In this document: positions 6,556 through 51,650 of the stretch, piece after piece
How positions within the stretch are numbered: position 1 is the first letter of the stretch
Layout: each line of letters starts with the position of its first letter
Assembly: GCF_000934725.1 (NCBI RefSeq)
Contig: NZ_JYNS01000007.1
Coordinates: forward strand, 62,001 to 126,000
Source: Methyloterricola oryzae
GTDB lineage: Bacteria; Pseudomonadota; Gammaproteobacteria; Methylococcales; Methylococcaceae
Direction of reading: 5' to 3'
DNA length: 64,000 nucleotides
Program-made: the position numbers and the translations under genes
The notes under the pieces: generated by a model
Seen by the model: only the letters and a program-made list of their open reading frames with translations
Told to the model about the DNA's origin: nothing
Database searches by the model: none

Positions 6556-8319
6556 TTAGCGCGCCTCCGCCGCAGGCAGAAGCGCTGCCGCATAGCCAGA
6601 GGGCAAAGGGATCACCCGCGCACCGTACCTTGCCGCGATTTGCCCGAGTAAGGTCCGTTGCTTACCGTTTGCCATCAGAAACACAGGTGCCTTGTGTCGA
6701 CCCAGCCACGCGTCCAGTTGATCCATCAAGATGATTCGTTGCAACTCCTTGCTGTCGTTGTGCATCTCAAACAGGATGTAGTTGCTGGTGAGTTCCGTCC
6801 CGTCCTTCGTAATCACATAGATCAAGCGCTTCAGATAAAACGGAAGGCCGTTGGGCAGGCACTCAATGCAGGCGATGTCGGTGTCCTTGCCAAGATCCTC
6901 GGGCATCGCTGCAGCCAGGTTTCGCGATGAGCGGCTTTCGACGAAACGCTGAATACCCGGGAAATTGATGGTAATCAGCAACAGCGGAACACTGACAAAC
7001 CCGAGAAATGTCAGCCTTGGGTCATTTGATCGGAGCGCCGCCAGGGAAAGCGCCACGACAACGGACAGGGACACCAGCAGCAGGGGCAACTGGGGCTTTA
7101 TCATCGCCACAGCCCGCTCCTTCAACCCAAGCCCCCCCTCGACTAACGAAGGATTCAATAGCCAACCGCCCGCGAACAGGGCCAGTACCCCCATGATCAC
7201 GGCCAGTGCAGCGGCACCGCGTCTGACGATGCAGGCGGATCGCCCCAAGCGATTGCCCAGGGCGCTGGAAAACACCCTCCCGACTAGGACACCCAAGGCA
7301 ATGACGGCGGTGAGGATATAGCCAGGCAGCTTGGACTGGGATACCGAAAAGAAACCCACCACGACCAGGGCCCAGACCATGAACAGTCGATCCGCGCTGG
7401 TCCAGTGACGCTGACTGCGGCAGGCTGCCGAAATGGATTGCGGCAACAGCAGGCTCCAGGGAAAAAAACAGCTCAGGATGATCAAGCCGTAGTAATAAAA
7501 CGGCGCAGTGCGGTGGAACTCCTGGGTCGTGAAGCGGGCGAAGGACTCTTTGACGAGACCGTAATACGGGAAGTCAGGACAAAGGATTGACAGTCCGACA
7601 AACCAGGGCAAAACCACGGCAAAGAAGATAGCCCAGTTGATCGGGGCAAAGCAGCGCCTCATGGCGCCCTTACGGCCATCCAGCGGATTGAACACGGCCA
7701 TTACCAGGGTGGGAAGGAGAAACCCTACCGGCCCCTTGACCAAGGTGGCCATGCCGGACGCAAGCGCACCCAGTCTATACCATCGCTTGCGCTCGGCGTC
7801 CTCAGACTGTTCGGCAAGAAAGCAGGCAAAAATGGCCGAGCACACGAAGAACGCCAGCGTCATATCGAAAATGACGATGCGCGCAAATGCAAGATACAGC
7901 GGAGTCGATGCCACCACCAGAATGGCGGCCAATGCGGCGCGCCGATCATAGACCCGCTGACAGAACAAAAAGATCGCGATGAGCAACGCTAGCGCGAAAC
8001 CCGCAGATGACAGCCTTGCGGTGAACTCCGACTCTCCGAAGGCTGCAAAGGACAGTGCCACGGTCTTGAAGTAGAAAGCCGGCTTGTCCAGATACGTCAT
8101 TCCATCGTAGGTGGGAACCAGCCATGTCCCCGAATCCGCCATTTCCCGGGCCACCTCAGCATTGCGACCCTCATCGGGCGCCAACAGAGGCAAATCGCCC
8201 AGATGCAACACGATGAAAACGGCGCTTAATGCGAAAGCAAGAACGATCATCCAGCCCCTGGAATCAGAAGCGGCAAGCTGTCTTGAGCAGGGCGAATTCA
8301 TGGAATCGGAAATACTCAT
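6556..8319 (-). CDS. ArnT/PMT-like integral membrane glycosyltransferase (GT-C fold)
   Basis: 587 residues from the ATG at 8319; a GTG at 8361 in the same frame is an alternative and neither has a strong ribosome site. After the first hydrophobic segment comes LAPDEGRNAEVAREM followed by TYLDKPAFYF, the conserved acidic loop and KP motif of ArnT and related polyprenyl-phosphate-dependent glycosyltransferases. About 11-12 hydrophobic segments follow, then a soluble periplasmic C-terminal domain (residues ~460-585), as in ArnT. The family transfers a sugar from undecaprenyl phosphate to lipid A, other glycolipids or proteins in the periplasm. It is first of a three-gene operon and ends 4 bases before the asparagine-synthase start. 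Donor and acceptor are unknown. Confidence 0.85.
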   Translation of the reverse strand: MSISDSMNSPCSRQLAASDSRGWMIVLAFALSAVFIVLHLGDLPLLAPDEGRNAEVAREMADSGTWLVPTYDGMTYLDKPAFYFKTVALSFAAFGESEFTARLSSAGFALALLIAIFLFCQRVYDRRAALAAILVVASTPLYLAFARIVIFDMTLAFFVCSAIFACFLAEQSEDAERKRWYRLGALASGMATLVKGPVGFLLPTLVMAVFNPLDGRKGAMRRCFAPINWAIFFAVVLPWFVGLSILCPDFPYYGLVKESFARFTTQEFHRTAPFYYYGLIILSCFFPWSLLLPQSISAACRSQRHWTSADRLFMVWALVVVGFFSVSQSKLPGYILTAVIALGVLVGRVFSSALGNRLGRSACIVRRGAAALAVIMGVLALFAGGWLLNPSLVEGGLGLKERAVAMIKPQLPLLLVSLSVVVALSLAALRSNDPRLTFLGFVSVPLLLITINFPGIQRFVESRSSRNLAAAMPEDLGKDTDIACIECLPNGLPFYLKRLIYVITKDGTELTSNYILFEMHNDSKELQRIILMDQLDAWLGRHKAPVFLMANGKQRTLLGQIAARYGARVIPLPSGYAAALLPAAEAR

Positions 8320-37266: not shown

Positions 37267-39108
37267 TCAGTTGCGCAGCGACTTGATCTCCAGGGTGGCC
37301 TGGCGCAGCTTCTTGGTCAGGCCTCGCGCGATGTTGGTGACCAGCTTGAGGCGGACCTGGGCGACCGAGTCATCCTGCATCGCCGAATGATCCAGACGCG
37401 TGTAGTCAAGGATGGAACAGGTCACGTCGGTGTCTGCGATGATGTCGGCGGAACGCTTGCCTTGATCCAGCATCGCCATTTCGCCGAATGCGGACCCCGC
37501 TGATATGGTCGAAATGCGCCCGGACCTGCGCTGCCCCAGCGGCACGCTGACACTGACCTGGCCCTGCAGCAGGAAATATAGGCAATCGGCAGGCTCTCCC
37601 TCGCGGCACAAATAGTCCCCCGCCGCGTATTGGCGCCGCTCCAGCATTACCTCCAAGGCAGACAATTCCGGCTCGCTGAACCCCGCACAGAACGCCTGGG
37701 TCGCCAGCGGCGCTTCGCCTTCGCCAACACCCCCCTGGCCGGCCAGCAGGCACTCCTCGCACCACTCCAGGGCATGATCCACGTCATCGAACCGGAGCAG
37801 CGGCAATTCCTCCAGATTCTTCAGGATTCCCCGGGCCGACTTCTTGACCACATATTGGTTGGCAATCCCGGTGAAGAGCACGGTCTTGCCGTGGTCGTAC
37901 TGGGAGCGGACCAAATCGATGAGCAGGTTGAGCGCACCGCCGTTGATCGTTCCTACCCGGGTGAAATCGATGATCAACTTGTCCGCTTTCTCACTCAGGC
38001 GCATGGACTCGCCGATGACGATCTCGGCCGAGGAGAACACCAAGTCGCCCTTCAGTTCCAGCACGCAGACCGTGTGGCCGAGTTCCGCCAGCAACCGGGT
38101 CTGTTCCACATTGCGGGTGCGCTTGGACTGCACCATGGTGGCATCGTAGATCGAGTGGAACACCGTCGGCGCCGAGGTGCGGTTGGTGTGGAGCATGTGC
38201 AAGCCGAAATCCGAGGAGATCCGTTTGCATACGGCCAGGCCGCGCACGCTGTTGCCTCGCTCGTCCAGGGGCGGAGAGAACACCGCCAGGCCGAACTGTC
38301 CCGGCAGCACCGCCACGATGCCGCCGCCCACGCCGCTCTTGGCCGGCATGCCCCCTTCGTAGATCCAGGCGCCGGAATAGTCATACATGCCGCAGGAGCT
38401 CATCACGCTCAGGACCTTGGGCACGTAGCAACTCTGCAACGCGCGCACGCCGGTGATGGGGTTGACCCCGTCATTGGCCAGCGTCGCCCCCATCAGCGCC
38501 AGGTCGCGGCAGGTGACCAGGATGGAACACTGCTGGAAATAGGCGTCCAGGACCTCGTCCGTGTCCTTTTCAATGATGTTGGAGTTGTGCAGCAGATAGG
38601 CGATGGCGCGGTTGCGATGACCGGTGGATTTCTCCGAGAGGTAGACCTCCTGGTCCACCATTACCGGATGACCCAGGTAATCCTTGTAGGTCTTGAGCAT
38701 GCGCTGCATCTTGGCGACGGGGGTGTCACCGGCAATGAGACTGACCGTCGCGATGGCGCCCGCATTGATCATGGGGTTCAGTGGCCGGCCGGTGTCGGGC
38801 TCCAGACTGATGGAATTGAATGCCTCCCCGGAGGGTTCGACGCCGACCTTTTTCAGCACCGCTTCCACGCCCTTGTCTTCCAGGGCAATGCCATAGGAGA
38901 TGGCCTTGGATATGGACTGGATGGTGAAGGACTGGCGGGAGTCGCCCTCCTGGTAGACATGCCCGTCCACCGTGATCAGGGCGATACCGAACCAGGCTGG
39001 GTCGGCCTTGGTCAGTTCGGGGATGTAACTGGCAACCTCGCCGCCATCCAGCCCCGCATAGTCGCGGTGGACGGATTCGAGGTATTCCTGCAGTGAATTG
39101 GCTTGCAT
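37267..39108 (-). CDS. glsA: Glutaminase A fused to STAS and cyclic-nucleotide-binding domains
   Basis: 613 residues. Residues ~1-305 are a serine-dependent beta-lactamase-fold glutaminase: SISK with the catalytic Ser-x-x-Lys, PLNPMINAGAIA, EVYLSEKSTGHRNRAIAYL, and PAKSGVGGGIVAVLPGQ. It hydrolyses L-glutamine to glutamate and ammonia. A STAS-like domain (~350-455: VCVLELKGDLVFSSAEIVI, KLIIDFTRVGTINGGALNLL) and a cNMP domain (~475-600: YLCREGEPADCLYFLLQGQV, cassette GEMAMLDQGKRSADI with Glu and Arg) follow. The fusion implies control of glutamine breakdown by protein partners and a cyclic nucleotide. It converges on the CHASE2 cyclase with 14 bases between stops, which makes that cyclase the obvious candidate source. 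Confidence 0.93.
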   Translation of the reverse strand: MQANSLQEYLESVHRDYAGLDGGEVASYIPELTKADPAWFGIALITVDGHVYQEGDSRQSFTIQSISKAISYGIALEDKGVEAVLKKVGVEPSGEAFNSISLEPDTGRPLNPMINAGAIATVSLIAGDTPVAKMQRMLKTYKDYLGHPVMVDQEVYLSEKSTGHRNRAIAYLLHNSNIIEKDTDEVLDAYFQQCSILVTCRDLALMGATLANDGVNPITGVRALQSCYVPKVLSVMSSCGMYDYSGAWIYEGGMPAKSGVGGGIVAVLPGQFGLAVFSPPLDERGNSVRGLAVCKRISSDFGLHMLHTNRTSAPTVFHSIYDATMVQSKRTRNVEQTRLLAELGHTVCVLELKGDLVFSSAEIVIGESMRLSEKADKLIIDFTRVGTINGGALNLLIDLVRSQYDHGKTVLFTGIANQYVVKKSARGILKNLEELPLLRFDDVDHALEWCEECLLAGQGGVGEGEAPLATQAFCAGFSEPELSALEVMLERRQYAAGDYLCREGEPADCLYFLLQGQVSVSVPLGQRRSGRISTISAGSAFGEMAMLDQGKRSADIIADTDVTCSILDYTRLDHSAMQDDSVAQVRLKLVTNIARGLTKKLRQATLEIKSLRN

Positions 39109-41335: not shown

Positions 41336-42301
41336 TCACTGTGGCCCAAATGGTAAATCGTACCTAAGGCTCCAAAGCTTTTTCCTGAAGTAGGTACACT
41401 TTCTATTTTTATAGAACCTCAGCATGGCTGGCACTGAGCCCGGCCTACTGGCCGCCACTTTGCCCACAAACTTGATATGCATCAGTTTCTTATTTAATTT
41501 ACGCCGCCCTTTAGTCAGCAGCGAGAAATGGAAGAACATCCAATCAAACAAGACATCTTCCGGAAGTTTGAAATGCTGCCTGAGGAAGCCGGTAAACTCT
41601 ATGCACGCGTCAATTTTATGCAAGTACACATGATCATCCTGCCTGGACGATAAGTTGTTTCCGCTCAACCTCCACCGCACTGGCTCATTACCGATGGTAT
41701 AAATGCCCTTTTCCATACCAAATCGTATCCAACTGGCCACATCACTTGCCCAGCCGAGAGGAAATTCCACAAAGCCGCCTGTGCCGAGATAGACATCTCG
41801 CGAGAAAATAAACTCGGAGGCGGAGCTACGGCAACTTCTATCCAAGACCCTGGAAGCAAACTGGGCTGACGACTCGTGGCCCGGATGACTCGTGGCACCG
41901 TAAAGTATTTCCCCCTGATGATCGATGACTGCCAAGTTGAAACGCACCACATCGAACCTGGTGTCCGAATGCAAGAAGTCATAAAAAGATTTCACGGCAT
42001 CCTTCGGCATGATGTCATCGTCTCCAAATACCCAAATCCATTCTTCGTGTGTCAGGTCGACACATCGCATCCACTGCCTTACCAGGGATTTGCCACCTAG
42101 ATTTTCAGGAAACCTTCGATATACTATATCGATACGGCTATTGTATTTTTCGACAATTGAAGAGAGATCCTCGGTACTTGCATCATCCCCAATGTATAAT
42201 GTGAACCGAGTATCGCTTTGCCAGGCAATTGAAGCCAGTGTCTGGTCAAAATATTCAGCCTTATAGGCAGGTATCACAATTGCAAGCTTTTGATCAGACA
42301 T
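41336..42301 (-). CDS. GT2-family glycosyltransferase
   Basis: 321 residues with GGGGAAG before the ATG. The GT-A fold is evident: LAIVIPAYKAEYFDQTLASI, LYIGDDASTEDLSSIVEKY, and the metal-binding DxD in WVFGDDDIM. VRWRLSGNNLSS lies where acceptor-site residues usually occur. No transmembrane segment; it should act at the cytoplasmic membrane face using a nucleotide sugar to build a surface glycan. The DNA is strongly AT-rich compared with its neighbours (22 G/C in the sampled 60-base line from 42121), a sign of recent transfer typical of O-antigen or capsule genes. Confidence 0.87.
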   Translation of the reverse strand: MSDQKLAIVIPAYKAEYFDQTLASIAWQSDTRFTLYIGDDASTEDLSSIVEKYNSRIDIVYRRFPENLGGKSLVRQWMRCVDLTHEEWIWVFGDDDIMPKDAVKSFYDFLHSDTRFDVVRFNLAVIDHQGEILYGATSHPGHESSAQFASRVLDRSCRSSASEFIFSRDVYLGTGGFVEFPLGWASDVASWIRFGMEKGIYTIGNEPVRWRLSGNNLSSRQDDHVYLHKIDACIEFTGFLRQHFKLPEDVLFDWMFFHFSLLTKGRRKLNKKLMHIKFVGKVAASRPGSVPAMLRFYKNRKCTYFRKKLWSLRYDLPFGPQ

Positions 42302-42612
42302 AAGAGCTTCCCCAGCAACAAAATCAACAACACGCGCCGGCAGTTCACCAAAACGCCTGTCAGTCGATCACTTCGCAACACCCAGGCAGACCGGATATTG
42401 GCCCACCAGTTAACCACCACAAAAAACCGCAAGCGCTTAGGAAGTAGCTCGCCAAATCCTGGCGAAGCCACACCTTCTTGGCACACGGTGATGGTATGCC
42501 CCACATCACAACTGGATGATAACAGCTAAATCACACAATCATCTCCAGCTTGGGCCTGACTCTTCCATCTCCACACGCGAATCCGTTTTGAAACTGATAC
42601 CGCCGGCACTGA
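42302..42612. other. Intergenic region upstream of the GT2 gene
   Basis: About 310 AT-rich bases. A 76-codon minus-strand frame (42274-42504) ends inside the GT2 gene and has a hydrophobic C-terminus; it might be a remnant of a membrane gene but has no recognisable homology. This region should contain the GT2 promoter and possibly the end of the cytochrome transcript. Confidence 0.35.
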
Positions 42613-45594
42613 TTACGGCGCCCGCCCATCCAGTTCCTTCAAATAAGATTCCAGTGCGTTCACCTCATCATTCTCCAGGGAGCCATGCGTCACACTCTCC
42701 GCATGTAAGCGAATGGATTCTCCCAAGGTCGCAGCCGACCCATCGTGCAGATAAGGGGCCGTATTCCAGACGCCACGCAGGCTTGGCGTGTCGAAACCGC
42801 TTAAGGGTCCATTAAGCCGCCGTCCACTTTCGGGCTGCTTTATCGTGCCGACGTCATGCAAGGGATTCTGCGTGTCGTTTATGCTGTCCGTAAGTGTCTG
42901 CCCCCCATGACACTGATCGCACTGCCGCGCCAGGAATAAAGCCCGCCCGGCTTCGGCGGGCGCGGTCAGGCTCTCATCCGCGGGCCGATAGGGACTGGGG
43001 ACAAAAGCGGACAGCGATTCCAGATAAGCCGCGAGCGCATCCAGATCCGCGCTCACGCCAGCCTTCGGATCACCGAGCGGCTGCGAACGGCTGCCGACTT
43101 GAAATTCCGCATCGCTCATGAGGCCGGTACCGCCAGCGAAGTTGCGAATCTGGCCCTCAAAATCCTGCACCTCGTCGAAATTACCGGTCCAGTGCATACG
43201 CCCGTGCCCGGTTCCCGCCCGGCCTTCCAGGGTCGTCGTGTTCCGCAATCCCTCGCCAAAACCGGTGAAATCCCAGGTGCGCCCGTCATGTCCCCCGTCG
43301 CTGTGACAGGCGCCGCAACTCAAGAAGCCATCCTTTGCAAGCCTCGGGTCGCGGGCGTCGTAGAAAAGTTGCTTGCCACGCAGGACCTGGGGTGACAACG
43401 CCTCCACGGCTACCGCCTGATAGTCCCCCACGCGCTTGGCCTCGAGCCTGCCATCCTGAGTAACGGCACCGACGTCGTAGATGCTCACGCTGCGATCCAT
43501 GAAATTGTGAATGAAGAGCTGACGCCCGTCGTCCGACAGCGCGAGGCCGTTTGGCGCCATGCCGGTATCCATGCGCAGGAGTTCCTGGTAGCCATATGCA
43601 TCAACGACAGCTATTTCACGGCTGGTTTCCTGCGCCACGAACAGGTAGTTGCCGCCGGGATCGAAGATGGCAGCGTTCGCGAAGCCACTGTTGCGAAAAT
43701 CCAGACGGGACGGAAAATCCTCGGTCAAAGTTTCGAGATCGATGCGCGAAGCGATGCTGCGCGTTGTCCAGTGAAAGGTGAGGTCCAGGCCATCTCGCAG
43801 CTTGCCACGCATGATGTTGTCCTGCTTGGACGGCACCCAGGCGCTTCTGCCATCCGGCGCAATAACCGCCGCGCCCAGATAGTTGGGAACACCCCGGCCG
43901 CCGGAAGGATTATCGGGAGTATCGTTGTGCTGCAGGATCACGGTGCTTGCGACGCTCATCGCCGTGGTATCAACGACCACAACCTCGCCGCCGACTGGCT
44001 TTCCGCCAGCATCGACCGTTCTGACTTGAACGCTCCCCTCCCCGGGCAAAGGCGGCGTGATAAAGCGAGAAACAAACAAGCGATCGCCTTTGCCATCCAC
44101 GGACAGGTGCCGGGGAGCATCGCCCACGGCAAGGCGGCCGGTTTCGTAGGCACTGACCGGATCCAGGCGCAGGACCAAGCCCATGGCTTCCAGGCTCACG
44201 TAGGCATGCCGGCCGCTGGGATCGAATACCAGTCCGTAGGGCTGTGAGGCCGATGGCAGATTGGCCGTGCGGACAACGGCCATCGAAGTGACGTCGATGA
44301 TGCTGATGCTCGCCGAGCGCCGGTTAATTACCCACAGCCGTCCATCCGGCGCCAGCGCCAGCGTGCGCGGGTCGGCACCCACTTGAACCTCGGCGACCTT
44401 TACGTGCTCAAGGGTATCGTAAGCCGTCACGCTGCCACCGTCCTGGTTCACATTCCACACCCGCTTGGTGGATGGCTCATACAGGATGCTGGTAGAGGCC
44501 TGCGGCCTACCGGCCGTCACGGGATTATGGATCGCCTGAACGAATTGCTGGATGGCGACAATCTTGCCATTCTGATGCGCCATGACGCTCACCGCGAAGC
44601 GCCCGGGGCGCTCGAAACGGTGGAAAGCCGTCGGCAAGGTCGTGGGCTGCGTCTGTGCAGTGCCATCGCCGAAAAGCCACGAGAATCGAAGGTTTAAGCC
44701 ACCGCTGGCCGTCGCCGCATAACTAACGGCTTCCCCCACCGATCGTGGCCGCGCGGCAATTGAGCCCAGTTGGACCGCCGAGCCAGACACTTCCAAGCGT
44801 TTGACGGTCCATGGGAACTGGACGGTCGTGCTGCCCCCCTCGAGATCAGTAGCACTGACGCTTACATTCCAATCCCCCTCAGCCGTCGGCGTGCCGGCAA
44901 TGAACCCGCTCAGATGGTCGATCGACAAACCGACGGGGAGTCCGCTGGCGCTGAAATTCAGTCGGCTCTGACTTTCACTGGTCGCCCGAACAGGCAAGCT
45001 GACCGCGATGCCGACCGTCGATGTTTGAGGCCCGGGTAATGACACCACGGGCGGGCCAATTTCGGCCGGTCGCGCGGAGGCCTTCTCTTGCAGTACGAAA
45101 GGTGACAGCGTCTGACCGCACAATTTCCTCTTGCCCGGGCGCTGGAGGCAAACTTGGATCAAGGTCCTGGAAGCACCGTTTTGCCCGGCCGCGCCGGGGA
45201 TCCAGTTCCAGACGCGCTTGCCTGCCTTGACGCGCGCCAGCGGCTGCCACGACATGCCTCCGTCTGTGGAAAGCGCTATGCGCAGCATCCGGCGGGGAGA
45301 AAACCCATGGAACTCCCAGCGGATGTCGCCAGCGGCACCGGGTGAGCGAATCTCGCCAGGCGCCGGCGAGGTCACCTGAATCGACGGTCGCGGGGTCGCC
45401 ATCAGGTTCGTCGACGTATCGCCATGCGCGGCCGGAACCTGCATGACTGCGACAACGTACAAGGCCACCTGCAAACAGACGCTGCACCAGGCATTTTCCC
45501 TGGAGGTTCCGGCCCGGCGTCCGGTAGCCGAAGCTGTCGCTGGGGCAGCCGCAGGCACGGTCGACGCTTTGAACCTGAAATTGCGGACGCTCAT
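42613..45594 (-). CDS. Secreted Ig/PKD - YVTN propeller - diheme cytochrome c peroxidase-like protein
   Basis: 993 residues. The N-terminus has a long leader with a hydrophobic stretch ending QVPAAHG. Then come a beta-sandwich with putative Ig fold (WEFHGFSPRRMLRIALSTDGG), a He_PIG-type domain (SGLPVGLSIDHLSGFIAGTP), a PKD-like domain (FSWLFGDGTAQTQPTTL), a YVTN-type beta-propeller (~375-745: DPRTLALAPDGRLWVINR, QPYGLVFDPSGRHAYVSL, APNGLALSDDGRQLFIHN) and a C-terminal MauG/CcpA-like region with two c-heme sites: CGACH (Cys760, Cys763, His764) and CDQCH (Cys892, Cys895, His896). SLRGVWNTAPYLHDG near 945 is typical of diheme peroxidases. It starts 13 bases after the copper-oxidase gene, same operon. 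Likely periplasmic or surface redox protein. Confidence 0.9.
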   Translation of the reverse strand: MSVRNFRFKASTVPAAAPATASATGRRAGTSRENAWCSVCLQVALYVVAVMQVPAAHGDTSTNLMATPRPSIQVTSPAPGEIRSPGAAGDIRWEFHGFSPRRMLRIALSTDGGMSWQPLARVKAGKRVWNWIPGAAGQNGASRTLIQVCLQRPGKRKLCGQTLSPFVLQEKASARPAEIGPPVVSLPGPQTSTVGIAVSLPVRATSESQSRLNFSASGLPVGLSIDHLSGFIAGTPTAEGDWNVSVSATDLEGGSTTVQFPWTVKRLEVSGSAVQLGSIAARPRSVGEAVSYAATASGGLNLRFSWLFGDGTAQTQPTTLPTAFHRFERPGRFAVSVMAHQNGKIVAIQQFVQAIHNPVTAGRPQASTSILYEPSTKRVWNVNQDGGSVTAYDTLEHVKVAEVQVGADPRTLALAPDGRLWVINRRSASISIIDVTSMAVVRTANLPSASQPYGLVFDPSGRHAYVSLEAMGLVLRLDPVSAYETGRLAVGDAPRHLSVDGKGDRLFVSRFITPPLPGEGSVQVRTVDAGGKPVGGEVVVVDTTAMSVASTVILQHNDTPDNPSGGRGVPNYLGAAVIAPDGRSAWVPSKQDNIMRGKLRDGLDLTFHWTTRSIASRIDLETLTEDFPSRLDFRNSGFANAAIFDPGGNYLFVAQETSREIAVVDAYGYQELLRMDTGMAPNGLALSDDGRQLFIHNFMDRSVSIYDVGAVTQDGRLEAKRVGDYQAVAVEALSPQVLRGKQLFYDARDPRLAKDGFLSCGACHSDGGHDGRTWDFTGFGEGLRNTTTLEGRAGTGHGRMHWTGNFDEVQDFEGQIRNFAGGTGLMSDAEFQVGSRSQPLGDPKAGVSADLDALAAYLESLSAFVPSPYRPADESLTAPAEAGRALFLARQCDQCHGGQTLTDSINDTQNPLHDVGTIKQPESGRRLNGPLSGFDTPSLRGVWNTAPYLHDGSAATLGESIRLHAESVTHGSLENDEVNALESYLKELDGRAP

Positions 45595-45607
45595 GCCCGG
45601 ATGCTGT

Positions 45608-47965
45608 TCAGTTGATGAGCGTCAGGCGCGACGCGCTGTTGTTTGCGCCATCCGGATCGGGCGATGCGCTGCAGGCCACACTGGCGCTGGTCTCCACGGT
45701 AGCGGTACCTGGCGCGAACCTGAGTTTGATGCCGAAGCGCTTGGATCTGTGCTGGCGCAGGTCACCCAGGTCGCAGACCAGCCGACCGCTGCCGGCCTCC
45801 GCGCAGTACGTCGGCTTCGTGACCAACCCAAGTCCGCTGGCATAATTCACGGTTACCGATGTGGATTGCGCCAGCACTTTGGACTTGTTTAGGACGACAA
45901 CCACATAACGAGCGATCTTGCCCGCCTCGTTACCCTTGACTTGCTTCGGCCCCCGCAAGCGGATGGACAGATCGGCGCCACCGGATGGCGCGGGAGCATC
46001 GGTGGGTGCGGGACTGGCCTTGGGACTGACCTTGGGACTGGCCTTGGGAGTTGGTTTGGGCGAAGCGCCCGGCTTGCCACTCGGGGCCGGCGTTGGGGCA
46101 GCGGTCGGCAGCGGCGTGGGCGTAGCGGCTGGTTGGTTGACGCTCCAGGTAAAACCGGCGCTTGCCTCGCTGGTGCCATCGCTGACGGTCACGACCACGT
46201 TACGGGCCTCCGCCACGGCCGGGCGACCGCTGATCACGCCACTGGCGGTATTGATGACGATACCCTGGGGCAGCCCGACCGCGCTGTAGCGCAAGGTCTT
46301 GCCGGCGGGCGATCTGGCATCGATGGCAACGTTCACCGCCGCCCCTGCGATGCTGGACTGATTGCCCGGGTTGGTCAATTCTGCGGCACCACGCGTGATT
46401 TGCACGAACTTTGCCACCGATGGCACACCACTGGCATTCAGTGCGAACAGCATGTAGTAACCGGGCGGCGCAAGGTTGCCGCTGGTCGGTCCGTTCAGCA
46501 GGAACCCTCCATGCCCGTCACTTCTGGACCCGGGCTTGATGATACGCTGGTCCGTGTTGACACCGTGGGTTGTCGCCGACAGGCGCACCATCGTAAAACG
46601 TGCGGTGTCTGCGCTGGCCTTCACGTCGAAACTGCCGTTGTAGCCGACCGCCGCCGGGGCGTCCGAGATTACGGGCCGCGCCCCCTTGAACAAATAGGGC
46701 GGGCTATACAATTGGCCGTCGCGGTGGTTCAGGGAGTCAGGGCAATCCACAACGGGTTTGCAGTACCCACCGCCCGCGGAAAACACCCGCCCGTCTGGCA
46801 TCAGCAGCGCAACGGAGTGATAGGTTCTAGGTGTCACCTGATCAGCCATGTCCGACCAGGTTTCCGTAACGGGATCAAACAGTTCCGGCACGGTTTGTGC
46901 GCCCACGTCCCAGAAATTACGGCCCTTATCCAGGCCGCCCACGACCAAAACCTGTCCGTCGGGCAGGATTACACCGTTCGCGAATGTACGCGGGCGCGTC
47001 ATGGACTGGATCTTCCGTGGAATGGTCTCCTGGATGGTGTCGCCGACTTCGATGACGTAGCTGTTCCGGGTTGCAAGAGCAGTGGATCCGATGTCATAGC
47101 CCTTGCTCCCCCCGGCCGCGAGGATCTTGCGCTCATCAAACATCACAGAGACATTGTTCTGGGCGAGGCTGTCGTCGGCACGATAGACGAAATCCGCATC
47201 CACATGCCCGTTGCCGATGGTGTCGTAGTAACGCAGCCTGGGGCTTGGACCAGCCGCGAACAACCGGCCGTTCGGTGCGAGGAAGAGCTTGGGATGTTCG
47301 TTGCTGCGGCCACCGACCCCATCGGTCATGGGCTTGACAGGAGTGCCCGGCAGCACAGCCCAGCCCTGACCGCTAGACCACAGTTCTCCCGGATCGTTGT
47401 AACCGAGCGCGTCGTTTCTTCCGCCGAGCGTGAAGACATCACCGTCGGCCAACGTGACCGCGGTGTTGTACCAGCGTTCATAATGCATACGGGCATCGCC
47501 GTACCACTGGTCGGAGGCGAAATCATAGATGCTGGTGTTGGTGACGAAGGGTCCAACACCGCCGCCGCCGCCACCGCTGACCAGCAGACGCCCGTCTTCG
47601 AGAAACGCGGTGCCCGGACAGAACATGTCATGGCCCGTATTAGTCACGGTGATCAGGCCACTGACGGCTCCGCTCGCCGGATCGTAGATCTGGGTCTGCG
47701 TCTGCTGCTGCGCCGGATTGCTGCTGGATTCGCCGGTCCCGTAGGTGAAAGCGTCCTTGTCCCAGGAGGACCAGATGAGAATCTTGCCATTCGGCAGCAT
47801 CGCAGCGGCTACGGGCACCGTCGCAAACTGAATGCTTGGGCCCCATGACCCGACTTCCGCGGGAGTCGCGGCCTGGGCAGCGCCCATCCGCGCGAGGCAA
47901 AACGCGATAACCATCGCACAGGCCGGGGAGAGTTTGACCAATTTTCTGTCGTACGCGCGGCTCAT
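45608..47965 (-). CDS. Galactose-oxidase-like copper radical oxidase with He_PIG and C-terminal DUF11-like domain
   Basis: 785 residues from the ATG at 47965; the frame opens 29 codons earlier. After a signal peptide (AMVIAFCLARMGAAQA) comes a kelch propeller with every galactose-oxidase active-site residue: Cys116 in HDMFCPG and Tyr166 in RWYNTAV (the cross-linked Tyr-Cys pair), Tyr382-His383 in PRTYHSVALL, and His467 in THGVNTDQR. The DUF1929 beta-sandwich follows, then a He_PIG domain (GLPQGIVINTASGVISGRP), a ~50-residue Pro/Ser/Thr/Lys linker and a ~120-residue C-terminal domain shared with the FG-GAP gene upstream. The enzyme should oxidise a primary alcohol or sugar to an aldehyde with O2, releasing H2O2. 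The diheme protein gene follows after 13 bases. Confidence 0.92.
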   Translation of the reverse strand: MSRAYDRKLVKLSPACAMVIAFCLARMGAAQAATPAEVGSWGPSIQFATVPVAAAMLPNGKILIWSSWDKDAFTYGTGESSSNPAQQQTQTQIYDPASGAVSGLITVTNTGHDMFCPGTAFLEDGRLLVSGGGGGGVGPFVTNTSIYDFASDQWYGDARMHYERWYNTAVTLADGDVFTLGGRNDALGYNDPGELWSSGQGWAVLPGTPVKPMTDGVGGRSNEHPKLFLAPNGRLFAAGPSPRLRYYDTIGNGHVDADFVYRADDSLAQNNVSVMFDERKILAAGGSKGYDIGSTALATRNSYVIEVGDTIQETIPRKIQSMTRPRTFANGVILPDGQVLVVGGLDKGRNFWDVGAQTVPELFDPVTETWSDMADQVTPRTYHSVALLMPDGRVFSAGGGYCKPVVDCPDSLNHRDGQLYSPPYLFKGARPVISDAPAAVGYNGSFDVKASADTARFTMVRLSATTHGVNTDQRIIKPGSRSDGHGGFLLNGPTSGNLAPPGYYMLFALNASGVPSVAKFVQITRGAAELTNPGNQSSIAGAAVNVAIDARSPAGKTLRYSAVGLPQGIVINTASGVISGRPAVAEARNVVVTVSDGTSEASAGFTWSVNQPAATPTPLPTAAPTPAPSGKPGASPKPTPKASPKVSPKASPAPTDAPAPSGGADLSIRLRGPKQVKGNEAGKIARYVVVVLNKSKVLAQSTSVTVNYASGLGLVTKPTYCAEAGSGRLVCDLGDLRQHRSKRFGIKLRFAPGTATVETSASVACSASPDPDGANNSASRLTLIN

Positions 47966-48110
47966 TGCTATACCTGCACTCAACTGATTCAATAACATTT
48001 TAAAAAGCATGGTTTTAGTCGCGCACTCATCCGTTTCAGTGCCAGTCCTCAACGATCCGTCTTGAGGATCCGGCTCATGCTTGCGCGAAGGCGTGTTGGC
48101 GCCAGAGGTC

Positions 48111-50183
48111 TCATCTGACCCGGGTCAGCTTCAATGCGGAGTTATTCGTATCGTCCGGATCGCTGGCAGCTGCGCTCGAGGTCGTGACGGCCGAGGTGAA
48201 CTCTCCCGGCTGACCGGCCCGGAACTTGAAGCTCAGGCGCTTGTACCAATGCTTCGGCAATGTTCCCAAGTCGCATACGAGGCCGCCCGCGGCGGACTCT
48301 GCGCAGCCAGCCGGGCTGGCCAATACTTGCAGGCCGGCCGGGAACTCAAAGCGAAGCGAGGTCAGCGCAGCCGCCACCCCGGATTTGTTGCGCACCGTCA
48401 CTACATAGCGCGCCACGGCACCGGCGCTGTGCAGCTTAAGCTTCTGGGGTCCACGCAGGCTCACGGACAGGTCGGCCGATAGGGTCGGACCGGGCTGCGG
48501 CAGCGGGCTGGCAGTCGGCGTGGGCGTGGGCGTGGACGTGGGGGCCGGTGAGGGATGCGTCGTAGGCGATGCGGACGGCGCCGGCGAGCCCTTGGGCGGG
48601 GCAGTCGGGGCAGGCGTGGGTTTCGATGAAGGTGCCGGCGTGGCGGTGCTGCCACTGACTGTGGTAACGGCGCTGGCCTGGTTGTCACCTGGATTGGCGT
48701 CGTATTGCGCGGCCGATACCGACGCCAGTGCATTGATGCCGCCCGCTTTTGCCGGCGAAACCGTAATGGTCCGACTGGCTGTGCCGCCTGCCGGCAACGC
48801 GCCGATGTTGCACACCAGGGCGCTACCCGATGAACCGCAGCCACCGGAAGACTGCACGGAGGAGCCGACGGCCGGGGTGATGCTCAATTTGACGCCGCTC
48901 GCGGCGAATGGGCCTTTGTTACTGACCTGTGCGCTGTAGGTCAGATTGCCGCCGGCGGCGACGGGATCCGGCGTGTCGGCCAAGTTGACAGCCAGGTCGT
49001 TGCCGAGCAGGCGTATGCTAGCCGTGGCGTCATGCCAGTTAGCAGTGGCGAGGTCTGGCAGTCCATCGCCATTGACATCGCCGGCGACGACAGAAAATGG
49101 CCCCTGCCCCATGATGAATTCGGCCTTGGGCTGGAAAGTGCCATCGCCGTTGCCCAGCAGGATCGCGACCGTATCGCCGCCGGTATGTTTGAGAGTCGGG
49201 TAGTTCCCGTAGATATTCGCGGTCAGGATATCGAGGTGCCCGTCGCCATTCATGTCGGCCAGGAAAACCGACTTCGGCGTGGTGCCCGCGGCGTAGTTCA
49301 CCCGAGTGGCAAAAGTGCCATCGCCCTGGCCGATCAGGACGCTCACATTGTTTGAGGCATCGTTCGCCGTGACCAGATCGGGAATATGATCGCCATTCAG
49401 GTCGCCGGAACGAATTGAATGCGGCTGCGAGCCGACGGATGGCGTCTGCTTGGTTTGAAAACTTCCCGCGCCATTTCCCAACAGCAGACTCACGGTGCCC
49501 GTGGTCTCGATGTGGTTGGCTGTCGCCAGGTCAAGGTTACCGTCGCCATCAAAGTCGGCGATCACGACTGAATGCGGCGCGGTGCCTACCGGGAACTTGA
49601 CCGGCGCAGCAAAGCCTCCAGCGCCGTTGCCCTTCAGCACCGCCACGTTGGCCTCGTTCCAGCCGACCACAACTATGTCGAGCTTCCCATCTTTGTCGAC
49701 ATCGCCAATGGCGGCCTCGTGGGCACCCTGAACCGCAGAGTAGCCGACTCCGGACTCGAAACTGCCGTCGCCATTGCCCAGCAGGACCGTGACACTGCCA
49801 GGACCGAGGACCCCTTTCGGAAAATTCTGATTGGCTGTCACAACGTCCAGATTTCCGTCGCCGTTCAAGTCTCCAATCGCAATGGATTTGGGTTCCGGCG
49901 ACGTGGTGGCAAAATCAGCCTTCGCGCCAAAGCTGCCGTCGCCATTGCCCAACAGCCGGCTGACCGTATTGTCCAGCGCGTTGGCCACCACCAGGTCCTG
50001 TTTGCCGTCGCCGTTCAGGTCGGCGATTCGCACGGCGTGGGCATGCAGGCCCGCTGGAGAAGTGGTCACTGGACCAAACTCGGGGACCGCGGCAATCGCC
50101 GGCACAACGCCTACGGCCAAGCCGGTGCTCAGAATTGCAAGGGTCAGCGGCTTGTCGATCATTCCGGCCATATGCTTACTCAT
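48111..50183 (-). CDS. Secreted FG-GAP/VCBS repeat protein with C-terminal DUF11-like domains
   Basis: 690 residues from the ATG at 50183 (frame open to 50273). A signal peptide (LAILSTGLAVGVVPAIAA) leads into seven FG-GAP repeats, each with a calcium-loop of the DxNGDGxxD type (for example DLNGDGKQDLVVAN, DFDGDGNLDLATAN, DVNGDGLPDLATAN), predicting a Ca-binding seven-bladed propeller (~25-410). A DUF11-like domain (~415-525), a long Pro/Thr/Ser linker and a second C-terminal domain (LSADLSVSLRGPQKLK to the end) follow. That last domain matches the C-terminus of the adjacent copper oxidase. It is first of the three-gene run and 145 bases upstream of the oxidase gene; a surface adhesion or scaffold role is plausible. 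Confidence 0.87.
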   Translation of the reverse strand: MSKHMAGMIDKPLTLAILSTGLAVGVVPAIAAVPEFGPVTTSPAGLHAHAVRIADLNGDGKQDLVVANALDNTVSRLLGNGDGSFGAKADFATTSPEPKSIAIGDLNGDGNLDVVTANQNFPKGVLGPGSVTVLLGNGDGSFESGVGYSAVQGAHEAAIGDVDKDGKLDIVVVGWNEANVAVLKGNGAGGFAAPVKFPVGTAPHSVVIADFDGDGNLDLATANHIETTGTVSLLLGNGAGSFQTKQTPSVGSQPHSIRSGDLNGDHIPDLVTANDASNNVSVLIGQGDGTFATRVNYAAGTTPKSVFLADMNGDGHLDILTANIYGNYPTLKHTGGDTVAILLGNGDGTFQPKAEFIMGQGPFSVVAGDVNGDGLPDLATANWHDATASIRLLGNDLAVNLADTPDPVAAGGNLTYSAQVSNKGPFAASGVKLSITPAVGSSVQSSGGCGSSGSALVCNIGALPAGGTASRTITVSPAKAGGINALASVSAAQYDANPGDNQASAVTTVSGSTATPAPSSKPTPAPTAPPKGSPAPSASPTTHPSPAPTSTPTPTPTASPLPQPGPTLSADLSVSLRGPQKLKLHSAGAVARYVVTVRNKSGVAAALTSLRFEFPAGLQVLASPAGCAESAAGGLVCDLGTLPKHWYKRLSFKFRAGQPGEFTSAVTTSSAAASDPDDTNNSALKLTRVR

Positions 50184-50741
50184 GGGTTTTTGAAGAGGAC
50201 TGTTCGGCCTCGTCAGTGCGTTGAAGGGCCCGGCTTTGGCATGCGTGCAAGCATGCGTCCGACGGCATTTCATTGTCTGAGGATATGTGCACTAAGCGCG
50301 CCATCTACGAATTTTAGTATCTTAAGCACATGATTTTCATATGATATATTCCCTCCTGACAGCTCAACCAACCCGGCACCAAATTGCTTTCGTGCCGCTA
50401 CTGGCGATGAAACTGTAAAATCTGCTTTACACCGACAGAACCGGGGACCAGTCGCCGGAACTAGATTGCGGCGCTGCCTGTCAAAAATTTTAACGACTGA
50501 CACACTCAATCCGCCGGCCCCGGTGGCAGCCTGCGTTACAAGGATCGACGGAGAATTTTCGAAAGTGCTGGCTGGCGTAAACCAGACAACCGTCTGCCCG
50601 TAATTAAAGATGCGTCTGTTCTGACGCCGCTCAGCTACATCTCGGCGAGGCCAAGCCAGCCTCGACCTTGACCGATCCGGGGCCTCGGACGCCAGGGAAT
50701 CTCAGTAGCCATTTAAGCGGATAGCCAATTGGAGGTCTCGA
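50184..50741. other. Divergent intergenic region with a short direct repeat
   Basis: About 560 bases between the FG-GAP gene and the epimerase gene. GCATGCGT occurs twice (50239-50246 and 50251-50258) separated by GCAA, in the likely 5' leader of the FG-GAP gene; this could be a regulator site. The stretch 50290-50420 is AT-rich and should contain the FG-GAP promoter. GGAGG at 50731-50735 serves the epimerase. No gene seen. Confidence 0.4.
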
Positions 50742-51650
50742 GTGAAAATACTTATTACAGGCGGCACCGGCTTCATCGGCAAGAGCCTGTGCCAGGCGCT
50801 TTTGGCGCAAGGGCATGATGTGACGGTGTTCAGTCGTCAGCCTGAAGACAGGGTACGCGCCCTTTGTGGAGCAAGCGTCGGCGCGTTGTCTGACCTGCGG
50901 TCCTTGCCGGCCGAAATCCGCTTCGACGCCATCATCAATATGGCGGGCGAAGGGATCGCGGATCGCCGCTGGAGTGAGGCGCGCAAGCAGCAGCTATGGG
51001 ATAGCCGCATCGGCGTGACAGGCGACCTGATTGCATTCATAGCGGGCATGGAGGAGCGGCCCAAGCTCCTGTTGAGCGGCTCCGCCGTGGGCTACTACGG
51101 CAACCGGGGGGACACCGTCCTCGACGAGTCGGCTGATCCCGGCGAGGATTTCAGCCACCGACTGTGCGCGGCATGGGAAAGGGAGGCACTGCGCGCGGAA
51201 GACTTGGGGCTGCGCACTTGCATCATTCGGACCGGTCTTGTCGTCGGGCCCGGCGGGGGCTTTTTGAGCCGCATGCTGCCGATGTTCAAGCTTGGCCTAG
51301 GTGGTCCCATCGGCGATGGGAAACAATGCATGAGCTGGATCCACTTGGACGACCATATTGGACTGACGCTGCGGCTGCTGAATGAGACCTCCGCCAGCGG
51401 CATTTACAACGCCACCGCGCCCAACCCCGTCACCAACCGGGAGTTCACGCGCTGCCTGGCCCAGGTTCTGGGCCGGCCGGCCTTCCTGCCCGCTCCCGCC
51501 GCCCTCCTGCGCCTCGTCCTGGGCGAAATGGCGGAACTGCTGCTCGGCGGCCAGCGTGCGTTGCCGAAAAGGCTGATGGAGCTTGGATTCGAGTTCCGCT
51601 ACCCGCACCTGCAGGAAGCCCTGGAGGACGTTCTAGGACGAACACGATGA
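50742..51650 (+). CDS. TIGR01777-family NAD(P)-dependent epimerase (YfcH-like)
   Basis: 302 residues from a GTG start with GGAGG six bases upstream. The Rossmann motif ITGGTGFIGKSL is at the N-terminus. INMAGEGIADRRWSEARKQQ, LLSGSAVGYYGNRGD, IRTGLVVGPGGGFLSRMLP and SWIHLDDHIGL are family signatures, and the C-terminal ~50 residues match the DUF1731 tail (LGRPAFLPAPAALLRLVLGE...KRLMELGFEFRYP). The catalytic Tyr in GYYGNRG sits where extended short-chain dehydrogenases have YxxxK-like residues, although the Lys is not preserved. Substrate unknown for the family. Its stop overlaps the start of the SRPBCC gene by 4 bases, so the two are coupled. Confidence 0.92.
   Translation: MKILITGGTGFIGKSLCQALLAQGHDVTVFSRQPEDRVRALCGASVGALSDLRSLPAEIRFDAIINMAGEGIADRRWSEARKQQLWDSRIGVTGDLIAFIAGMEERPKLLLSGSAVGYYGNRGDTVLDESADPGEDFSHRLCAAWEREALRAEDLGLRTCIIRTGLVVGPGGGFLSRMLPMFKLGLGGPIGDGKQCMSWIHLDDHIGLTLRLLNETSASGIYNATAPNPVTNREFTRCLAQVLGRPAFLPAPAALLRLVLGEMAELLLGGQRALPKRLMELGFEFRYPHLQEALEDVLGRTR

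Follow-up and report, generated by a model that had tools for sequence, protein, structure and literature searches.

The DNA analysed here is a 64,000-nucleotide stretch of the Methyloterricola oryzae genome (contig NZ_JYNS01000007.1, positions 62,001 to 126,000), referred to as the window; the window's order and genome are those of this source organism. It carries a gene for a secreted copper radical oxidase (CRO) and, 13 bases further on and on the same (-) strand, a gene for a secreted propeller-diheme protein. These two genes are two halves of what is usually one composite bacterial protein. The same two parts are fused in dozens of other genomes, which rules out that they are chance neighbours, and because the pair corresponds to the two parts of one fused protein, the copper and the heme parts very probably work together. 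We lean, by a little better than an even chance, to the view that the propeller-diheme part is a dedicated redox partner of the CRO, serving radical activation and/or disposal of H2O2. A first-pass annotation of the window had proposed a secreted oxidase coupled to a secreted diheme protein, a coupling that the fusions elsewhere support, and its coordinates and 13-base spacing are borne out. Both N-termini are signal-peptide-like by eye.

45608 to 47965, (-) strand: CRO gene, ATG at 47965, stop at 45608, 785 amino acids, secreted
42613 to 45594, (-) strand: propeller-diheme protein gene, ATG at 45594, stop at 42613, 993 amino acids, secreted

When the window's genome was compared with 100 related ones, G046 (same order, other family) alone had close counterparts of both proteins, and there both parts form one 2,427-residue protein. 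A search of the class at 1e-30 finds the heme module in 5 of 369 genomes, one of them the window's; fusions are also present in G144 and, as two genes, in G289, and in G354 and G449 another N-terminal part precedes the module. Searching public species genomes with an alignment of the heme module yielded at least 550 confirmed relatives, of which the best 80 loci were kept. In 74 of these best 80 a single frame holds both CRO and heme module, and none of the 80 is a counter-example to fusion: in the other six (L040, L048, L063, L075, L099, L100) the frame leaves the contig end upstream, and three of them keep a weak CRO tail. The pair, which the first-pass annotation had asked to be sought in other genomes, is thus common as a fusion, and a refutation by its absence elsewhere fails.

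The fused frames have 1,383 to 3,043 residues, the exception being L049 with 1,094, since a stop falls between its heme sites (an in-frame TAG at 6817-6819, in a metagenome-assembled genome (MAG) of Planctomycetota). L054 has a second, cut module besides its fusion, and L046 and L019 are, judged by length and sequence, the same contig. The fused proteins are large and multidomain, with Ig, PA14, F5/8, laminin-G and lectin-like domains, and in the one record examined for its annotation the fusion is named only ‘discoidin domain-containing protein’. The best 80 loci belong mostly to Pseudomonadota and Verrucomicrobiota, with isolates of Steroidobacter, Leucothrix, Methylibium, Rhizobacter, Undibacterium, Rivibacter and Brevifollis among the carriers; the single MAGs of Planctomycetota and Chloroflexota could be binning errors. 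In Rivibacter subsaxonicus (L103:6902-14605) a 2,568-residue frame contains two propeller-diheme copies identical in DNA, either a recent duplication or an assembly artefact.

The association was followed through whole orders. In that of Brevifollis, which we take to be Verrucomicrobiales, the heme module is found in 64 of 189 genomes (1e-60) and the CRO in 46 (1e-30). Modules scoring at least 860 bits, a line chosen after the scores were seen, in the gap between 870 and 798 bits, number 54, and 50 of them have the CRO in the same frame; the other four (G1037, G988 and two of G1006, identified by contig number and frame length as L063 and L075) leave contig ends. None of the 45 weaker modules has a CRO in frame. 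Counted by genome, the CRO is present in 44 of 44 genomes with a strong module and in 2 of the 145 others (Fisher p ~4e-41). Eight CRO matches in this order are without an in-frame module; the three that were examined (G1037:C306, G1060:C77, G988:C107) leave contig ends, and the CRO of G936 is probably standalone, its frame being short (539 residues). The window's order has the module in 5 of 311 genomes (1e-60), four times fused, and the window is the only split case. Of 200 genomes of the Rhizobacter order, six have the module (1e-60): CRO fusions in two (G472, G491) and other forms, without CRO, in G484, G497, G617 and G627.

The CRO consists of the signal-peptide-like N-terminus, a galactose-oxidase/kelch part with a GO-like E-set, a He_PIG Ig domain, a Pro/Ala/Lys-rich linker and a DUF11 tail. 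Pfam assigns GO-like_E_set (PF09118) at 83.9 bits (cut-off 25) and Glyoxal_oxid_N (PF07250) at 46.0 bits (cut-off 37.5). Its top PDB match is galactose oxidase 9g8h (E 2.8e-101), aligned over residues 33-522, followed by the weaker matches 4unm (8.7e-38) and 9n3u (2.2e-17), which excerpts of PMC13094651 give as GlxA and the aldehyde oxidase FgrAldOx, respectively. The residues of the active site, numbered from the ATG at 47965, are placed by alignment with galactose oxidase:

47618..47620, (-) strand: Cys116, partner in the Tyr-Cys cofactor
47468..47473, (-) strand: Trp165-Tyr166, the cofactor Tyr preceded directly by the second-shell Trp, the aldehyde-oxidase arrangement
46817..46822, (-) strand: Tyr382-His383, the axial Tyr and the first His copper ligand
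46565..46567, (-) strand: His467, the second His copper ligand

All the catalytic residues named in the first-pass annotation (Cys116, Tyr166, Tyr382 and both His ligands) are therefore present, and the protein shows the AA5 features that can be read from sequence, namely the Cys-Tyr pair, axial Tyr, two His, propeller with E-set, and second-shell Trp. In an alignment of 75 CRO domains, the window's and those of 74 fused relatives, every row with a letter at the position keeps the Cys (73 of 73) and the first Tyr (74 of 74), and all 75 have the second Tyr and both His.

The second-shell Trp lies on a separate loop in galactose oxidase (W290) and directly before the cofactor Tyr510 in FgrAldOx (W509), according to the excerpts of PMC13094651. 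In the window's CRO, Trp165 stands beside Tyr166 like W509-Y510 of FgrAldOx and there is no Trp at the W290 place; it is thus of the Trp-before-Tyr kind, yet in overall sequence it is closest to galactose oxidases. Both arrangements occur among the 75 domains: 51 read RWY, with the Trp only before the Tyr, and 21 read R[GA]Y with a Trp at the W290 place on the later loop, while one has Trp in both zones and two in neither (one with Tyr there, one gapped). Compared with the AA5 CROs (galactose oxidase, aldehyde and glyoxal oxidases, GlxA), the window's CRO and its relatives share all first-shell residues, the E-set and the second-shell Trp, and differ by the pairing or fusion with a diheme module and by the use of either of the two Trp places.

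The partner protein had been described from the window alone as a secreted Ig/propeller protein with two c-heme sites, and this holds. Its domains are, in order, He_PIG, PKD, a YVTN-type beta-propeller and a diheme cytochrome c part; He_PIG, PKD and CCP_MauG are all above the Pfam cut-offs, and there are exactly two CxxCH motifs (residues 760-764 and 892-896). The AlphaFold model of the propeller and diheme parts together (mean pLDDT, the predicted local distance difference test score, 92.7) confirms the propeller; the model of the diheme part alone is weaker (mean pLDDT 73.0).

43303..43317, (-) strand: heme 1 site CGACH, residues 760-764, CxxCH in 87 of 87 rows
43144..43194, (-) strand: distal-side signature HWTGNFDEVQDFEGQIR, residues 801-817, in which Gln815 aligns with the distal Gln of CCP/MauG
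43120..43122, (-) strand: Leu825, where CCP/MauG have the catalytic distal Glu (by profile alignment)
42907..42921, (-) strand: heme 2 site CDQCH, residues 892-896, CxxCH in 87 of 87 rows
42703..42705, (-) strand: His964, at the aligned position of the sixth ligand of heme 2 (alignments to 3o5c and 1iqc)

Of the 87 rows of the heme-module alignment, from which L049 was excluded, 86 have Leu825 and 82 have His964; the five rows without His964 are L032, L033 and L054_3, which are not known fusions, and the fusions L054_1957 and L092. His801, Trp802, Asn805, Glu808, Asp811 and Glu813 are invariant in the 87 rows, in part by construction, since the 80 loci were found by exact patterns from the HWxxNFDE/DFExQI stretch, that is, the same stretch served as the search pattern. 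Among 20 members found by other searches, HWxxNFDE and DFE are kept in 19, and L129, a plasmid locus, is without the first motif.

A profile alignment of the diheme part with eight diheme peroxidases (seven from the relatives' loci and one encoded beside the L030 fusion) has a probability of 99.7. In it Trp802, Gln815 and Leu825 correspond to residues whose roles we take to be those of inter-heme Trp, distal Gln and distal Glu, respectively. The sixth ligand of heme 2 is Met in CCP and Tyr (Tyr294) in MauG. This Met aligns with His964 against 3o5c and 1iqc, and there is a gap at the position in the eight-peroxidase alignment. By sequence, heme 2 may thus be bis-His. The first-pass annotation had likened the protein to MauG/CcpA, which is right as to the diheme-peroxidase fold and not, by alignment, as to the canonical positions, taken by His964 and Leu825. 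Of the CCP/CcpA features, the two c-heme sites and the fold are present, and the Met ligand of heme 2 and the distal Glu are absent by alignment, as is Tyr294 of MauG, replaced by His. Another Glu could serve in place of the distal Glu, and the distal side is conserved enough for an active site despite the lack of the canonical CCP/MauG set.

The fold matches of the modelled diheme part alone are hydrazine synthase gamma (5c2v_C, Z 14.2), CCPs (12.9), MbnH-type proteins (12.7) and MauG (12.4), and its best PDB profile match is likewise hydrazine synthase (4.9e-23), with CCP next (2.1e-21). For the propeller, the best VIA-align match is hydrazine synthase beta 5c2v_B (Z 37.9, 1.9 A over 305 residues) and the next is 1l0q (36.1), which Foldseek ranks first. 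Hydrazine synthase gamma and beta are thus the best profile and fold matches of the heme protein, by a small margin. The profile of this heme-module family scores Y294H MauG (3orv, 41.8 bits), with His in place of the Tyr ligand, above the wild type (3l4m, 38.7 bits), but the variants W199K (40.7) and W199E (40.3) exceed the wild type too.

Two assignments were rejected. A canonical MauG or CcpA is ruled out, on alignment only, by the His at the heme-2 ligand and the Leu for the distal Glu; the score of 39.0 bits is also below the NCBIfam TTQ_mauG cut-off of 443.85. Hydrazine synthase proper is ruled out by a score far under the NCBIfam beta-gamma cut-off (70.8 versus 1250 bits). With CCP/CcpA, MauG, MbnH and BthA the heme protein shares two c hemes, the fold and, in alignment, the inter-heme Trp and the distal Gln, and it differs by His for the Met/Tyr ligand, Leu for the distal Glu and a propeller in front. 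With hydrazine synthase beta and gamma, and their fusion, it shares the propeller and diheme folds and the profile match, while it is partnered with a copper oxidase and remains far under the cut-off.

A careful tree of the heme module, built from 34 chosen rows, places the window's heme protein among the CRO-linked modules and separates it from L032, L033 and the cut L054_3 (support 98/98). A clade of ten (100/99) mixes the modules of seven group II fusions with those of three group I fusions (L064, L077, L107), groups I to III being groups of CROs; the other group I modules fall outside this clade, and a quick CRO tree unites the 25 group I CROs with a support of 99. Because the group I and group II modules are nested and the group I CROs stay in one clade, different CROs have, judging by sequence, very probably been exchanged on related heme modules. 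A count of 16 changes on the tree is not used as evidence, because it treats seven rows truncated at contig ends as a separate group. The window's heme half lies among the fused relatives in one tree (SH-aLRT 92), but the approximately unbiased test does not reject a topology in which the fused rows group to its exclusion (p-AU 0.20), so that the split in the window is either a late gene fission or an older separate pair.

The neighbouring genes of the fusions were compared in 80 loci, 79 from the scan and the plasmid locus L129, with L049 left out; flanks exceed 1.5 kb downstream in 62 of them and upstream in 65. A SCO-like gene with CxxxC lies within 4 kb, mostly downstream, in 29 of the 80 (18 of 21 in group II, 8 of 25 in group I, none of 27 in group III, and three cut loci). 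L129 is annotated with a SCO gene, yet falls outside the SCO-like cluster; Pfam SCO1-SenC is above the cut-off in all three proteins tested (L036, L073, L129). A small protein with one CxxCH adjoins 14 of the 80 fusions, 13 among the 21 of group II and L129; it is a Pfam cytochrome c in L073 and not in L129. A recurrent row of fusion, small one-heme protein and SCO-like copper chaperone is seen in group II loci (L073:12343-13439, L129:10882-11983), and the plasmid record CP099607.1 lists a fusion, a hypothetical gene and a SCO family protein one after another.

A MauG/MbnH-like gene adjoins 14 of the 27 group III loci and none of the 29 SCO loci; that of L038 has one CxxCH, the rest two. A canonical gene of this kind lies upstream of the fusion in L062, L068, L070, L072, L076, L079, L096, L112 and L030, and downstream in L052, L058, L060, L066 and L109. 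In Pfam searches with five of these neighbours, those of L072 and L112 have an MbnP domain, that of L060 a YtkA-like domain and those of L052 and L030 neither; the MbnP domain suggests copper delivery to the CRO. By eye, 16 aligned neighbours (L030, L122 and L127 included, L038 not) have a Tyr at the place of MauG Tyr294 and distal Gln, Pro and Glu, so that by their sequence these proteins are canonical where the fused module is not. Among the group I loci, L034 shows a weak diheme match at a distance of 2 kb.

The heme partners in the CRO pairs compared here, fungal and bacterial, belong to different families. CROs need a one-electron oxidation to reach the radical form, which horseradish peroxidase brings about in vitro, being required for maximum activity, and in Colletotrichum and Magnaporthe a secreted tandem peroxidase activates the CRO despite its comparatively low peroxidase activity (excerpts of PMC9770985). 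In this fungal Perox-AlcOx couple, as in the window, the genes of a secreted CRO and of a secreted heme protein are neighbours; in the fungi the heme protein is a class II peroxidase and the genes stand head to head (same excerpts), whereas in the bacteria it has two c-type hemes and a propeller and in most cases shares one polypeptide with the CRO. A heme partner beside or fused to the CRO is thus common to both. The arrangement had been called new in the first-pass annotation; given the fungal CRO with an adjacent gene for an activating heme peroxidase in the excerpts of PMC9770985, this has to be qualified. The open-access literature, searched by titles (subscription papers and preprints lying outside this scope), yields no report of a CRO with a propeller-diheme protein. 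A word search of PMC11267884 finds neither cytochrome nor fusion.

By analogy, an attached c-type diheme module could perform the same activation, take up electrons or consume H2O2. In the mechanism that we propose, the CRO would oxidise a primary alcohol or an aldehyde, perhaps on an extracellular glycan, via the Cu(II)/Tyr-Cys radical, and the propeller-diheme part would carry out one-electron chemistry beside the copper site, most likely switching the CRO into its radical form and/or removing H2O2, with a c-type cytochrome as its electron partner. The contact of the split proteins, the direction of electron flow, the substrate and the peroxidase activity are what we infer. Counted in favour of a dedicated redox partner are the fusions in the best loci, the co-occurrence of CRO and module, the different CRO types found on related modules and the fungal precedent. 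The SCO-like, monoheme cytochrome c and MauG/MbnH-like neighbours fit copper loading and electron transfer, and the neighbouring cytochrome c suggests that electrons are exchanged with a chain.

Several observations weigh against this assignment. The heme module is not confined to proteins with a CRO: a Big_5 part takes the place of the CRO in L032, L033, L114, L115, L119 and L120 (LVIVD above cut-off in L114 and L115), and in L116 and L117 the module stands alone as a short protein with a lipoprotein-like start. The CRO is found in 18 of the 311 genomes of the window's order and 13 of these 18 are without the module, therefore CROs do not generally depend on it. Peroxidase activity is uncertain, because, by alignment, Leu replaces the distal Glu and heme 2 may have two His ligands, and in about half of the group III loci the adjacent canonical MauG/MbnH-like enzyme could be the activator instead. 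Finally, no SCO gene or further CCP_MauG gene lies beside the pair in the window. The window's genome has eight SCO matches and further CCP_MauG matches; within the window the only one is the heme protein itself.

Among the functions considered, we place activation or H2O2 handling ahead of electron acceptance, and MauG-like cofactor maturation after both. Electron acceptance, in which electrons would pass from copper to heme to the small cytochrome c and the enzyme would be a copper radical dehydrogenase instead of an H2O2-releasing oxidase, is unlikely. The apparent bis-His heme 2, the loss of the canonical peroxidase Glu and the monoheme cytochrome c genes concentrated in group II speak for it, but known CROs use O2 as electron acceptor, and the distal side of heme 1, well conserved, also in 19 of the 20 members not found by motif, resembles a catalytic site more than a relay. 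Joint secretion only, with a shared polypeptide or operon because both parts act on extracellular material and without electronic coupling, is distinctly less probable: the large proteins with their Ig, PA14, F5/8, laminin-G and lectin-like domains and the other partners of the heme module would agree with it, but this clade of the module is found near-exclusively with the CRO, and different CRO types occur on related modules. Installation or completion of the Tyr-Cys cofactor by the diheme part, to which the diheme-peroxidase fold, the presence of MbnH and MauG among the matches and the modification of a copper-binding protein by MbnH might point, is very improbable, as the galactose oxidase cofactor forms unaided with copper and O2, the positions of MauG Tyr294 and Glu113 are His and Leu by alignment, and standalone CROs with the same residues occur in module-less genomes of the window's family (L003, L005).

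If the diheme part is indeed a dedicated redox partner, bacteria would have an equivalent of the fungal CRO-peroxidase couple in which the two parts are in most cases linked covalently and the heme protein comes from another family. This bears on what activates CROs in nature and on self-contained enzymes for biocatalysis. A wider proposal, tentative and possible rather than probable, is that these proteins form a widespread unrecognised class of composite bacterial metalloenzymes, with direct electron exchange between a copper-radical site and a diheme module resembling hydrazine synthase on the same polypeptide, as a copper radical dehydrogenase or a self-activating oxidase, and that they would be loaded with copper by an adjacent SCO or MbnP/MbnH-type gene. 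The ties of CROs to copper-related genes (SCO, MbnP/MbnH) make the copper loading of a secreted radical enzyme testable.

The position of the distal Gln is Asp (HWxxNFDEIQDFExDI) in the CRO-less L114, L115, L119 and L120 and Gln in CRO-linked modules. Elsewhere in the window's genome, at C7:206492-207649, SCO1-SenC and CCP_MauG stand side by side, their frames having the same length (652); this probably represents the fusion of a copper chaperone with a part resembling diheme peroxidases.

Upstream of the pair lies one further gene that shares a part with the CRO.

48111..50273, (-) strand: FG-GAP repeat protein with a DUF11 tail, 145 bases before the ATG of the CRO

Its DUF11 tail is related to that of the CRO (44% over ~200 amino acids), and the Pro-rich linker together with the tail is common to 48111-50273 and 45608-46200, as if the tail had been copied between them. 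The FG-GAP gene is possibly co-transcribed with the CRO gene; terminator and promoter counts in 42000-51000 are similar to those of shuffled sequence, and for this reason co-transcription can only be inferred. By eye, the frame at 37267-39108 joins a glutaminase to STAS and cyclic-nucleotide-binding parts.

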